64,000 nucleotides of DNA from Oceaniferula marina (GTDB lineage: Bacteria > Verrucomicrobiota > Verrucomicrobiia > Verrucomicrobiales > Akkermansiaceae). Below, one piece after another: positions 3,410 to 55,885 of this stretch. The notes under the pieces were generated by a model. That model did not search any database. It saw only the letters and a program-made list of their open reading frames with translations, and was not told the DNA's origin. Both the position numbers and the translations under genes were made by a program. Location of the stretch: assembly GCF_013391475.1 (NCBI RefSeq), contig NZ_JACBAZ010000002.1:550706-614705 (forward strand), given 5' to 3'. Each line of letters begins with the position of its first letter. Position 1 is the stretch's first letter.

Positions 3410-3611
3410 TACCACTCCACAAAACAGACGAGACGATTGATCGTTGTTGAGGTATGTGGAAAAGCACTGCGTGATCCATGAGAGTTCCGGATGAATGACT
3501 CCTTTGGCTTTGTTTCTCCTTAGTCATGGTGCCCGCACCATTGCTTCGTCGCGCCTTACCAAAGAGCTCATTCATCTCGGCTATCGTCCCGTCTGTTTAC
3601 GACTTGGTATA
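3409..3611 (+). repeat. Palindromic intergenic element, family 1, variant C
   Basis: Termini are ATACCA (3409-3414) and TGGTAT (3605-3610). Nested inverted arms pair along the element: AAACAGACG-GACGAT (3422-3437) with ATCGTC..CGTCTGTTT (3583-3598), and GATGAATGA..CCTTTGG (3490-3507) with CCAAAG..TCATTCATC (3559-3576). The apex is ATGGTG-CCCG-CACCAT (3526-3541), followed by GCTTCGTCGCGCC. The element starts on the last base of the upstream stop codon. Its stem sequences differ from variants A and B but the layout is the same. Confidence 0.8.
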
Positions 3612-45848: not shown

Positions 45849-48254
45849 ATGAACGTTTCTCTCAACTGGCTTAAAGATCACCTGGACCTTGCGGATTTTT
45901 CTCTCCAGCAAATTGACGATTTGTTGACCTTTGCCGGGGTTGAGGTCGAGGGAATCGAACAAAAGGGAGTGCCGTCCGACCGTATTGTGGTGGCCCAAGT
46001 CAAATCAGCCGAACAGCACCCGAATGCCGACCGATTGAAAGTCTGTATGGTGGATGCCGGTGAAGGCGAATTGCGTCAGATCGTTTGTGGTGCCCAGAAT
46101 TACAAGGTCGGTGACAAGGTGCCATGTGCCTTGCCTGGATCGGATCTTGGTGGTGGCTTTGTGATTAAAGAGGGTAAGTTGCGCGGAGTGGAATCCAAGG
46201 GCATGCTTTGCGCCGCGGGTGAAATCGGCCTGACGGACGTAGAGGACGGCTTGATGATTTTGCCCGAGGATGCCGAGATCGGCGTTCCGCTGCAGCAGAT
46301 GTTTGATACCGACACCATCATCGAGGTGGAAGTCACCCCGAATCGCCCGGACTTGTTGTCCCACACCGGGATGGCACGCGAACTGGCTGCCCTCGCTGGG
46401 ATTGAGCGGACCTTGCCGGATAGGGGCGAGTTGGCCGAAACGGTAAGCTGTGAGGAAGTGGTTCGCATTTCGGCTCCTGATGCCTGTCCGTATTACACCG
46501 CCGTCAAGATTTCCGGAGTCAGCGTGAAAGAGTCCCCGGCGTGGTTGAAGACCAAGCTGGAAGCGATTGGTTTGCGCCCGATCAATAATGTGGTGGATGT
46601 CACCAACTACGTGTTGCATGAGCTTGGGCACCCATTGCACGCATTTGATGGTTCCAAGGTGAGTGTGCCACTCGATATCCGGATGGCTGGGGAGGGGGAG
46701 ACATTCAAGGCGCTCGATGAGGAGACCTACACCTTGAAAAATGAGGATGTGGTGATTTCCGACGGATCCGGAACGGTGCTTGCCTTGGGCGGCATCATGG
46801 GCGGCTACGACAGCGGCGTGACCGAATCCACGACGGACGTGATTCTGGAATCCGCTTATTTCACACCGTCAGGGATTCGTAGAACGTCGCGTCGTCTGGC
46901 CCTTAGCTCAGATTCTTCTTATCGCTTTGAGCGGGGAAGCGATCCTCAGGCAGCTCTGAAGGCTTCAGCGTTCGCCGCGAAACTGATTACCGAGATTGCC
47001 GGTGGAACCATTGAACATGAAACCTGTGTCGCCGGTGAGGCTCCGGTGTTGACCTCCAAGGTGGAGCTCGATGCCGCTAAGCTCGATCAGCTCATGGGGG
47101 GCTCCATCTCTCTTGAGGGGGCCGAAGACATCCTCGTTCGTCTTGGACTGAGCAAGGCGGATTGTGGTGCTTGGCAAATCCCCAGCTTCCGTCTGGATTT
47201 GAGCCGTCACATTGATTTGGTTGAGGAAATTGCCAGGGTGCATGGACTTGACCGGGTGCCTTCACGTTTTACCGGGACTTACGTGCATGCCAGCGAAGTG
47301 GATGCCGCATATGATTACCAGATGGAGTTACGCCGTAAGTTGGCTGCGCTCGGGTTCCATGAAACTCAGACGATCAAGCTGATTGCCGACCATTCCACGG
47401 ATTCGACGGTAGCCCAGATGGATAGCGCCTTGCCGCTGCGTCCGCTTCAGGATGGAGATGTGATTCGGGTGGCTTTGCCATTGAGCGAGGATCACGCCGT
47501 GATGCGCCCATCGCTGACACCAGGTTTGGTGGCAACGGCCGCGCGGAACATCCGCCAAGGAGTGAAATCGTTGCTCTATTTTGAAATTGGCCGCCAGTTC
47601 CGGAACGCGGGAGGCGGGAAAGCAAAGGATTTGGAGGCTGACTCGCTTGCTTTGTTGCTCGGAGGTGATGCCCGCCCTGCTTCCTGGTCACATCAACCGG
47701 ATACCTTGGACGCATTCGATCTGAAGGCCGTTGTCTGCGCTTTGTTGCCGGGTCACGAAATCCAACTTAACCCGCGTAAGCGCGAAGGTTTTATTCTTGC
47801 TGCCGATATCCTTTGCGAGGGCAAGCCGATTGGCGCTTTTGCCCAGTTGACGCCTGCGAAGTGCCGTGATCTGGGGAGTGGCAAGCCGATCTACCTTGCC
47901 GAGCTCGATGTTAAAAAATGTCAGCAACTGAGCTGCGGAACCGCACAGGTGGATGATTTGCCCCAGTTCCCTGGTTCGAGTCGCGATGCCGCGATGGAGG
48001 CTCCGGTGACGCTGGCCAATGCCGAGATTGAAAAAGCGATCAAGAAGCATAATGAAATGCTGCTCGCATCGTATGCCTGTTTCGATGTTTTCACCGATCC
48101 GAGTGGTGAGAAGCTCGCAGCAGATAAAAAATCCATTGCCTACAGCTTCCATTATCGCTCACCTGAGCGCACGATGAAGTCCAAAGAGGTGGATACCGCA
48201 CACCAGAAATTGCTCGACCATTTGGCAAAAGCCCTGCCCGTTAGCTTCCGATAG
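45849..48254 (+). CDS. pheT: Phenylalanine-tRNA ligase beta subunit
   Basis: Full 801-aa bacterial-type beta subunit. The N-terminal tRNA-binding OB domain has VAQVKSAEQHPNADRLKVCMVD. The B3/B4 editing region has EVTPNRPDLLSHTGMARELAAL and RPINNVVDVTNYVLHELGHPLHAFD. The B5 and core regions have GGIMGG, RFERGSDP and IDLVEEIARVHGLDRVP, and the C-terminal FDX-ACB domain has VFTDPSGEKLAADKKSIAYSFHYRSPERT. With PheS it charges tRNA-Phe. pheS is not adjacent, which is unusual because pheST normally form an operon. Confidence 0.97.
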   Translation: MNVSLNWLKDHLDLADFSLQQIDDLLTFAGVEVEGIEQKGVPSDRIVVAQVKSAEQHPNADRLKVCMVDAGEGELRQIVCGAQNYKVGDKVPCALPGSDLGGGFVIKEGKLRGVESKGMLCAAGEIGLTDVEDGLMILPEDAEIGVPLQQMFDTDTIIEVEVTPNRPDLLSHTGMARELAALAGIERTLPDRGELAETVSCEEVVRISAPDACPYYTAVKISGVSVKESPAWLKTKLEAIGLRPINNVVDVTNYVLHELGHPLHAFDGSKVSVPLDIRMAGEGETFKALDEETYTLKNEDVVISDGSGTVLALGGIMGGYDSGVTESTTDVILESAYFTPSGIRRTSRRLALSSDSSYRFERGSDPQAALKASAFAAKLITEIAGGTIEHETCVAGEAPVLTSKVELDAAKLDQLMGGSISLEGAEDILVRLGLSKADCGAWQIPSFRLDLSRHIDLVEEIARVHGLDRVPSRFTGTYVHASEVDAAYDYQMELRRKLAALGFHETQTIKLIADHSTDSTVAQMDSALPLRPLQDGDVIRVALPLSEDHAVMRPSLTPGLVATAARNIRQGVKSLLYFEIGRQFRNAGGGKAKDLEADSLALLLGGDARPASWSHQPDTLDAFDLKAVVCALLPGHEIQLNPRKREGFILAADILCEGKPIGAFAQLTPAKCRDLGSGKPIYLAELDVKKCQQLSCGTAQVDDLPQFPGSSRDAAMEAPVTLANAEIEKAIKKHNEMLLASYACFDVFTDPSGEKLAADKKSIAYSFHYRSPERTMKSKEVDTAHQKLLDHLAKALPVSFR

Positions 48255-48403
48255 GTGAGTTCGGATTGCGAATAAAGTATATTTTTTATAAAAAATGGCC
48301 AATAGTGCCAGAATATACGCGTTGAATTGTGTCGTAAATGCGTTGTTTTTCGTGCTTTGAGGCCAAAATGGGCCGCGAAAGGCTATTTTTTACAGAAAAA
48401 GTC

Positions 48404-48431
48404 TTGCCATTATAAAAAAGGTGTCTAATCT
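48404..48431 (+). promoter_or_regulatory. Sigma-70-like promoter of candidate small RNA
   Basis: TTGCCA (48404-48409), 16-bp spacer, TAATCT (48426-48431). It lies 150 bp downstream of pheT in an A/T-rich stretch with no gene on this strand. The expected transcript starts near 48438 and ends at the terminator at 48632. Confidence 0.55.
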
Positions 48432-48437
48432 GAATTT

Positions 48438-48632
48438 CAACGAGAGGGACATCCCCAAAGGTTCCAATCGTTTGCGAGGGTTTCCTCATCATCCCTTCCC
48501 AACCCATGATGAGTGAGGTCTCGCAAATCCCCTTTTGACAGACACCCACCCACTCCCCAACTATTCCCCCAAACACCCCCCCCTAAAAACGCTCCGCTCT
48601 TCTATCCCCTCCGAAGAAGCGGAGCTTTTTTT
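48438..48632 (+). ncRNA. Candidate structured small RNA (about 195 nt)
   Basis: Bounded by a promoter-like pair at 48404-48431 and an intrinsic terminator at 48591-48632. Internally, TTTGCGAG (48471-48478) pairs with CTCGCAAA (48520-48527), and CTCATCAT (48485-48492) with ATGATGAG (48506-48513), giving a long interrupted hairpin. Next comes a C-rich unstructured stretch (48541-48585) and the terminator stem. No significant reading frame is present; the only ATG opens a 10-codon peptide. I do not recognise a known RNA family, and the paired ends expected of 6S RNA are missing. Confidence 0.5.
48591..48632 (+). terminator. Strong intrinsic terminator
   Basis: GCTCCGCT (48591-48598) pairs with AGCGGAGC (48618-48625), with adjacent TCTT/AAGA extension, followed by seven T. 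It terminates plus-strand transcription from the candidate small RNA or from pheT, 340 bp upstream. Confidence 0.85.
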
Positions 48633-48669
48633 GTCTCTTTCTTCAGGAAATCAGGAAGCGGGATGGCTT

Positions 48670-48707
48670 ATACCATTCTCCCGGCAGCCCCACCACTCAA
48701 ATGGTAT
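48670..48707 (+). repeat. Miniature remnant of the family 1 element
   Basis: Only the two ends of the element remain: ATACCATTCTCCC (left end) joined through about 8 bp to CCACTCAAATGGTAT (right end). It sits immediately before a full copy at 48709, separated by a single base. It looks like an internal deletion or excision product. Confidence 0.8.
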
Positions 48708-48708
48708 T

Positions 48709-48916
48709 ATACCATTCTCCCAGTTAAATTGGCAGAATGGTTTGCGTTTAGGATGATGAGTCAGTCAGCAAGCTGAATGACAAGGGGGGCACTGAATCTT
48801 TTAGATTTTACCGTTGTTGCGCGTCGGTTGCATAGCCCGCTATGCGCCTTCCTTGCGCCTAGTTAAAATCGAAAACCTTCAGTGCCATTCAGCCAATTTA
48901 ACCACTCAAATGGTAT
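48709..48916 (+). repeat. Palindromic intergenic element, family 1, variant A, copy 3
   Basis: Termini ATACCATT and AATGGTAT, with the same internal arms and apex (48830-48845) as copies 1 and 2. Its right end touches the fur stop codon (48916-48918), so it lies exactly at the 3' end of fur. Confidence 0.9.
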
Positions 48917-49350
48917 TACTTCTGCTCTGAGCATGTTGGGCAGGTGCCGAAGAACTCAAGTTCGTGGTAGAGGTTTTTGTAGCCGGTGGTGAACTGGATT
49001 TCTTTTTCGAGTTCGTGAACAGGACAGGGGGCGTTGATGGGTTCGATCGAACCGCACTCGGTGCAAATCAGGTAGTCGCGGTGCTGATTGGGTAGAAGCA
49101 GGGCGAAATAAGCGGCTCGTTCATGGAGTCCGAGTCGACGGAGGATGCCCTTGTCGGCCAGCCGTTGGAGGAGGCGGAATACGGTGGCCTTATCACATTG
49201 GTTGGCGAGGCGGGGTGACTCGGTGAGTTCGGCGAGGGTCATCGGCCGATCACTTTCGAGCAAGGTGCGGAGAAGTTCTTCGAGGGCCTTGGTTCTGCGC
49301 AGCCCTTCGGAACGGCAGTGGTCGATGAGTTGATTGAGATTGTTGGGCAT
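48916..49350 (-). CDS. Fur-family metal-responsive repressor
   Basis: N-terminal winged helix (LTESPRLANQCDKATVFRLLQRLADKGILRRLG), then a dimerisation domain with metal ligands: CTEC (structural zinc pair), APCPVHE and a C-terminal CPTC pair (FFGTCPTCSEQK). The 144-aa length is normal. Fur, Zur and PerR cannot be told apart with certainty; H-x-x-x-C-x-x-C spacing resembles Zur/Fur. It probably represses metal-uptake genes. It follows ruvB by 26 bp on the same strand, and its stop codon touches a palindromic element. Confidence 0.9.
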   Translation of the reverse strand: MPNNLNQLIDHCRSEGLRRTKALEELLRTLLESDRPMTLAELTESPRLANQCDKATVFRLLQRLADKGILRRLGLHERAAYFALLLPNQHRDYLICTECGSIEPINAPCPVHELEKEIQFTTGYKNLYHELEFFGTCPTCSEQK

Positions 49351-54514: not shown

Positions 54515-55729
54515 CTATTCCTCCAGTGGGATGGCGCGTGGAGGGCGTGGCGAGTAGCGGCGAGGGTAGCCGGACCGGCCGCTGCCTCGGGCTTGATTTG
54601 GGGTCTGGCGTGCCGTGTAGTTCCGGGTGGGTTGGCTCGCCTTGGTTTTGAGCAGCTCGCTGATGGTGTGGGCAGGGATGATGAAGGTTTTGATCCGGCT
54701 TCCGCGGGCGATGATGATGCCGACGGTTTGGCCGTCGAGGTTGACCACGGGACCGCCGCATTCGTTGGTGTAGTCGTCCCGTGGGTCTCCGGGCGTTTCA
54801 TTGTATTGGATTTTCATGTCCGATTGGATGACACTGGGGAACCCGTGCCGGATCCGGTTGGGGGCGGCGCCCATTTGTTGCATTTCATTCAGGCGTTGGC
54901 GGGGGAAGCGACTGGGGTCGAGTTCGCTTGGGCGCGAGCCGAGGACGACCTTGGTGCTGGCTTTTTGTTTTCCCCGGAGGTAGTCGACTTGAATCCTGGT
55001 TCCCGGTTCGAGGCGCTGCAGGGTGTTGCGGATTTCGGTGGCTCCTTTGAATCGCTCTTTATCGATGGAGGTAATGATATCTCCCTGACGGAGGCCGGCT
55101 CGGGAGGCCGGGGATTGTGGCTCCACGCGGTCGAGTCTGGTGCCGAGCGAGGAACTTTTTTCGCTCATCAGGACGCCGAGAAAGGCTTTGTCTGTTTCGC
55201 GCAGACTTCGTTCTTTGACACTGACCACGCCGAGGGCGAGCAGGCCGTTGCTGGCATCCGCTGCGGCCAGAAACTCACCGATGTCAGGGGTGGCGGCATG
55301 GTTGAGAGAAAGCGGGGTGAGTTTCAGGTCGGTTTTGAGGACCGCGAGGTCATATTCCGGATAAATGCCGATGAGTTCCGTCCAGTGATATTTTTCATTG
55401 GGGGCGATGACTTTGAGGCGCTTGTGGTAGTAAGCGATTTCGCTCCACTTGGTGAGAATGATGTTTTGTTTGCTTTTCGGGTCACGGACCACGGTGCCGT
55501 ATGAAATGCGCTGGTTTTTGTAGCTGAGGACAACGGTACTTTGGGAGGCCTTGCTGATGACCGGACGTGCCGCGTGGTAGAGTCGCTTGGCCTGGCCAGA
55601 GAGCGTGCGTTTTTGTTCCGCTGTCAGGCTGTCCAAGGGGTCGGGCATCTGGAGCCCTCGTTGGGCCAGAACAGGCAAGCTGAGAGTCAGGCTGAGCGAG
55701 GATAGGAAAATGAGCGTCGGGAACTTCAT
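54515..55729 (-). CDS. S1C protease-like protein with inserted PDZ and altered triad (probable pseudoprotease)
   Basis: Signal peptide MKFPTLIFLSSLSLTLSLPVLA. The first barrel is at about 55-150: the catalytic His loop reads ILTKWSEI (residues 91-98) without His, while Asp127 is kept in EYDLAVLK. A PDZ domain lies at about 183-265 (VEPQSPASRAGLRQGDIITSIDKERF), before the second barrel. The nucleophile motif near residue 324 reads NECGGPVVNLDG, Cys instead of Ser. PDZ between the two barrels is unusual; DegP-type proteins carry it at the C-terminus. Probably a periplasmic binding or scaffold protein. Just upstream of the ATG lies an octamer array. Confidence 0.8.
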   Translation of the reverse strand: MKFPTLIFLSSLSLTLSLPVLAQRGLQMPDPLDSLTAEQKRTLSGQAKRLYHAARPVISKASQSTVVLSYKNQRISYGTVVRDPKSKQNIILTKWSEIAYYHKRLKVIAPNEKYHWTELIGIYPEYDLAVLKTDLKLTPLSLNHAATPDIGEFLAAADASNGLLALGVVSVKERSLRETDKAFLGVLMSEKSSSLGTRLDRVEPQSPASRAGLRQGDIITSIDKERFKGATEIRNTLQRLEPGTRIQVDYLRGKQKASTKVVLGSRPSELDPSRFPRQRLNEMQQMGAAPNRIRHGFPSVIQSDMKIQYNETPGDPRDDYTNECGGPVVNLDGQTVGIIIARGSRIKTFIIPAHTISELLKTKASQPTRNYTARQTPNQARGSGRSGYPRRYSPRPPRAIPLEE

Positions 55730-55736
55730 GGTTTTT

Positions 55737-55880
55737 GGGAAGTCGGGAAGTCGGGAAGTTGGGAAGTTGGGAAGTCTGGAAGTCTGGAAGTCTGGAAGTC
55801 TGGAAGTCTGGAAGTTGGGAAGTTGGGAAGTCGGGAAGTCGGGAAGTCGGGAAGTCGGGAAGTCGGGAAGTCGGGAAGTT
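55737..55880. repeat. Octamer tandem array, 18 units of GGGAAGTC/T
   Basis: Eighteen units of 8 bp (GGGAAGTC with variants GGGAAGTT and TGGAAGTC) fill almost the whole 156-bp gap between two protease-like genes. The array stops 7 bp before the ATG of the downstream gene (minus strand), in its 5' untranslated region, leaving no purine-rich ribosome-binding site there. Variant units occur in blocks, suggesting expansion by slippage. Confidence 0.95.
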
Positions 55881-55885
55881 GGGGG

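Follow-up and report, generated by a model that had tools for sequence, protein, structure and literature searches.

A candidate stand-alone noncoding transcription unit between pheT and a Fur-family gene of Oceaniferula marina

The window, by which we mean the whole 64,000-nucleotide stretch of DNA analysed here, contains a 661-bp gap between two convergent genes, pheT (plus strand) and a Fur-family gene (minus strand). We tentatively read the candidate in this gap as a stand-alone noncoding transcription unit, an orphan peculiar to the species or strain, and give this reading somewhat less than an even chance. It is slightly favoured over a long pheT 3′ UTR with tandem terminators, and both are elements of ordinary kinds. 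The original prediction had described a self-contained unit; this remains plausible in that a promoter, a rod helix and a terminator of its own follow the probable terminator of pheT, while the promoter named at that time is not the best one.

Transcription of the unit, its start and any activity in trans are what we infer from the order of these signals. Transcripts of pheT would stop largely at a first terminator, T1 (48345-48391), and a promoter lying on the T-run of T1 (48389-48416) would initiate transcription near 48423-48427, giving an RNA of about 205-210 nt. The 5′ part of this RNA would be shielded by a rod helix (48441-48537); the RNA would then continue through a G-free, C-rich single strand to a second terminator, T2, ending at 48632, and the two-way T2 would also halt transcription coming from the Fur-family gene. 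If there is any action in trans, it would proceed without Hfq or ProQ, by pairing of the C-rich strand with a few G-rich targets, which would more likely be parts of coding sequence than Shine-Dalgarno sites; equally, the C-rich stretch may do no more than load Rho or aid termination in cis.

Locus and neighbouring genes

The source assembly is a 5.07-Mb draft of 88 contigs, 97% complete, with the window inside contig C2; 2.46 of the 5.07 Mb were read, piece by piece. Judged by PheT, its relatives belong to the Akkermansiaceae, and Rubritalea is also near. The upstream gene pheT (45849-48254, plus strand) matches TIGR00472 with 703.7 bits against a cut-off of 402.65, and the convergent neighbour (48916-49350, minus strand), which is followed by ruvB, matches PF01475 with 49.6 bits against a cut-off of 23.1, an assignment at family level only, as all NCBIfam equivalogs stayed under their cut-offs. 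A simple codon-usage gene finder called no gene within the gap, in keeping with the initial claim that the unit has no coding capacity and with a stand-alone noncoding unit.

Most of the gap past T2 is occupied by a dispersed repeat of about 215 bp (48702-48920) with the inverted ends TACCATT...AATGGTA, which, judged by its sequence, looks like a MITE. There are 29 matches listed in the same genome, the long ones 94-98% identical, and two other genomes contain weaker relatives; a 40-bp remnant that shares the ends of the repeat adjoins at 48668-48709. In three genomes of the same genus (L063, L065 and L066), a tmRNA gene (tag ADSNELALAA) lies directly 3′ of the Fur-family gene, and the window differs from them in having no tmRNA gene at that place.

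Promoters and terminators

T1 (48345-48391, plus strand) is an imperfect hairpin followed by TATTTTTT (tail 48384-48391), combining -13.6 kcal/mol with a U-run, and none of 300 dinucleotide shuffles reached -13 with a comparable tail. It is probably the terminator of pheT itself, and it is rivalled by a longer fold spanning the entire 3′ UTR. The promoter that had been proposed for the unit, TTGCCA-16-TAATCT (48404-48431, plus strand), is present, yet its 8/12 match is at chance level, since 43% of 150-nt coding pieces and 63% of upstream regions score at least 8/12. The best sigma-70-like promoter is TTTACA-16-TATAAA (48389-48416, plus strand), with a predicted start at about 48423-48427. Its score of 10/12 is a consensus match only; scores this high have a frequency of 3.1% among upstream regions, 0.2% among coding pieces and 5.2% among shuffles, so that both this promoter and T1 do better than shuffled sequence, the former with about 5% of shuffles against it. 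Its -35 box is overlapped by the T-run of T1, and a 10/12 promoter in this position makes plausible a separate unit (about 48424-48632, some 205-210 nt).

T2 (48586-48632, plus strand) consists of a hairpin at 48591-48625 and seven T at 48626-48632, with -19.4 kcal/mol and a z-score of -5.1; in a separate comparison, none of 300 shuffles matched it. A strong intrinsic terminator with seven T, as had been predicted, is therefore found at 48591-48632, and the stable G+C-rich hairpin directly before a T-run is present in both directions: the minus strand is also terminator-like (GTTTTT, -20.3 kcal/mol, z -3.4). Because T2 works two ways on paper, it could serve both pheT and the Fur-family gene with no sRNA involved.

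This leads to the main alternative, to which we give a little over one chance in three: no separate gene exists, and what lies between the convergent genes is a long 3′ UTR of pheT carrying tandem terminators. T1 would then be leaky, T2 together with the C-rich, G-free segment (as a rut-like Rho-loading site) would form the main two-way barrier, and the rod would be a 3′-UTR structure that halts exonucleases, or incidental. The gene order, the two terminators and the terminator-like character of T2 on both strands are those of known tandem or two-way terminator 3′ UTRs between convergent genes; what sets the candidate apart is that its terminators enclose a promoter-like site and a rod helix that is not a terminator. 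The alternative depends on T1 being leaky, accounts for neither the 10/12 promoter nor the rod, and implies a 3′ UTR of 378 nt, which would be long. A separate unit would be expected to show just this succession of terminator, promoter, rod, C-rich strand and terminator, and termination does not require a rod.

The rod helix

The minimum-energy fold contains a three-part rod helix (48441-48537, plus strand), formed by 48441-48448/48530-48537, 48470-48483/48515-48528 and 48485-48492/48506-48513 and capped by a 13-nt pyrimidine-rich loop. Both pairings of the two-part helix described in the original prediction recur in this fold, namely TTTGCGAG/CTCGCAAA (48471-48478 / 48520-48527) and CTCATCAT/ATGATGAG (48485-48492 / 48506-48513), and the hairpin 48470-48537 has a z-score of -5.1; like T2, it is much more stable than shuffled sequence. 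The longer rod 48438-48540, which includes the 8-bp outer helix 48441-48448 / 48530-48537, reaches -3.2, and the entire predicted transcript (fold of 48438-48636) -5.7. These values, together with that of T2, argue for a stand-alone unit. Against this, a 70-nt window with z < -4.5 is found in 45 of the 117 convergent intergenic regions of the 2.46 Mb, as such gaps hold terminators and repeats. Folded structure by itself proves little in this genome, and the frequency of strong folds in such gaps fits a pheT 3′ UTR with tandem terminators.

The C-rich stretch

The unpaired C-rich stretch, predicted at about 45 nt, is found at 48542-48590 (plus strand) as 49 unstructured nucleotides without G, 28 of them C (57%), and is the sole G-free run of at least 30 nt on the plus strand of the window. 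In 2.46 Mb of the genome there are 17 comparable C-rich places, this one included, and the remaining ones are mostly short tandem repeats. Over the 78-nt window from 48538 the C/G ratio is 10.25, and among about 122,900 windows 21 reach this value.

Among the terminators, a single close parallel was seen elsewhere in the genome, at about 3450-3560 of locus L166 (minus strand), after a gene labelled amtB-like by eye from its end, where a 71-nt G-free, C-rich run precedes a strong terminator; CCCCCCCCTAAAAA is common to this run and to the stretch in the window. Of 125 terminators whose 3′ leader spans at least 30 nt, these two are the extremes. A general enrichment of C before terminators was considered and rejected: in 0.86 Mb the leaders had 28.6% C and 16.6% G, but in 2.46 Mb 26.0% C and 19.3% G, near the intergenic background of 26.1% C and 20.6% G, so that only the two sites stand out. 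Descent of the stretch from the C-rich octamer repeats of the genome was likewise rejected as unproven, as alignment with six units was no better than that of shuffles (p 0.13 or more).

With C exceeding G, an unstructured leader segment and Rho encoded in the genome, the stretch looks like a Rho-loading or termination feature, and a rut-like, termination-aiding role would be its simplest reading in cis. Rut segments share these properties, being C-rich and G-poor, lacking structure and lying upstream of the point at which transcription ends; the likeness of the candidate to them is one of sequence, and it differs in the strong intrinsic terminator that follows immediately. The recurrence of a G-free, C-rich run with a shared motif before a terminator, the extreme rank of both sites, the C/G ratio and the presence of Rho all speak for the tandem-terminator 3′ UTR. 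Matches to the Rho RNA-binding domain occur at two distinct places (C4 92230 and 341224), in long open frames of 742 and 491 aa, which suggests that there may be two Rho proteins.

On the minus strand, the stretch contains a canonical four-run G-quadruplex motif (48545-48583), which could be a functional element that opens when the C-rich strand is transcribed. In Neisseria, such opening by transcription has been put forward for the quadruplex at pilE and the sRNA that goes with it. As 42 such motifs occur in 864 kb, many of them within tandem repeats, and no variable gene cassette was seen nearby, we regard this as the least probable of all the readings.

Tandem repeats of 7-8-mers are numerous between genes in the 2.46 Mb read (e.g., C2 130445-130593 and 134753-134816), and several that are G-free and C-rich (CTCCCAT, ACTTCCCA) stop 0-11 nt from a start codon. 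Within the window, 18.4 copies of GGGAAGTC (94% match) lie at 55737-55883 between two minus-strand genes, with the sense strand C-rich, and the second of these genes (54515-55729) starts 8 nt after this array.

Conservation

The search for relatives found none: BLASTN of the gap against 260 Akkermansiaceae genomes gave short chance matches only, and a covariance model, built from a single sequence, recovered itself (138.8 bits) and no other member in the genomes of the genus (14), the family (254) or the order (387). On its own genome and on the individual loci scanned the model also found only itself, and the element is single-copy. Rfam gave nothing at gathering scores or at a relaxed E-value, with 6S, SRP, tmRNA, riboswitches and known sRNAs included, and phage records held no match to the candidate. 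In the loci of relatives that were examined, those of the same genus included, pheT and the Fur-family gene are never side by side. Lack of conservation in relatives had been named as half of what would refute the prediction, and by these sequence searches that half is the case; it counts against a stand-alone unit, whose transcript is a prediction from sequence.

Even the closest relatives by PheT share only about 80% identity. The genomes compared are thus distant ones, and an sRNA that evolves fast could escape such a search. Given also the single-sequence model, the missing homologues are weak evidence against function; they remove any covariation support, so that covariation gives no evidence either way. 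A further possibility is that the region is random lineage-specific intergenic sequence beside a spreading repeat, with T2 as its sole function. The empty searches and the adjoining mobile-looking repeat would suit such an origin, but rod helix and promoter both exceed shuffles, and we consider it very unlikely.

Shine-Dalgarno pairing and known sRNAs

According to the original prediction, the C-rich strand could act in trans by pairing with purine-rich Shine-Dalgarno regions. Exposed C-rich segments do act so in two RNAs that work without Hfq, sX13 of Xanthomonas and IsrR of staphylococci (PMC3771888, PMC9410917). In the present genome this mechanism fails on several sides. Shine-Dalgarno-like motifs (GGAG, GAGG or AGGA) stand at -19 to -4 of 7.5% of 1,082 ATG starts; two control positions give 7.3% and 9.9%, so there is no enrichment, and G is depleted before starts to about 15%; Akkermansia, moreover, is listed among the bacteria in which such sites are scarce (PMC10783764). 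Over 1,527 genes, the predicted duplex with the C-rich strand is weaker at initiation regions (mean -8.4 kcal/mol) than in gene interiors (-12.5 kcal/mol). Neither Hfq (PF17209) nor ProQ (PF04352) was detected in the 97%-complete assembly, where controls were positive, which also places the candidate outside the Hfq- or ProQ-dependent sRNA class. A general anti-Shine-Dalgarno role is thus unsupported, and with conservation lacking and no E. coli-type Fur box above chance (best 11/19, reached by 48% of shuffles), we hold an sRNA that blocks these regions to be very unlikely. The C-rich stretch may have individual G-rich targets, a few in number.

Like the candidate, sX13 is a structured RNA with C-rich unpaired segments; it acts without Hfq, is conserved in its group, and pairs through three C-rich hairpin loops with G-rich motifs near ribosome-binding sites (PMC3771888). 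The candidate, in contrast, has a single long C-rich strand plus a loop, lacks relatives in the searches made and has a host poor in Shine-Dalgarno sites. IsrR also has C-rich single-stranded regions, is Hfq-independent and is repressed by Fur via Fur boxes (PMC9410917); the candidate has a Fur-family gene as its neighbour, but no such box of the E. coli type above chance. It shares with both RNAs the exposed C-rich segment and the intrinsic terminator, while genome-wide G-rich or Shine-Dalgarno targets at translation-initiation regions, and conservation or covariation in relatives, were not found.

A young, species-specific, Hfq-independent sRNA, whose C-rich strand would pair with G-rich coding sequence or titrate a C-binding protein such as Rho instead of blocking ribosome-binding sites, is in our view unlikely; its host barely uses Shine-Dalgarno sites. 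No described sRNA from Verrucomicrobia turned up in the literature search. If transcribed, the stand-alone unit would be a concrete and easily tested sRNA candidate; at present it is an unconserved prediction. For bacteria in which Shine-Dalgarno sites are scarce, the usual rule that a C-rich sRNA pairs with such sites is not transferable without a test. Among the 1,082 ATG starts themselves, position -3 is A in 42%, -1 is C in 44% and +4 is A in 55%, which gives a Kozak-like ACC-ATG-A pattern.
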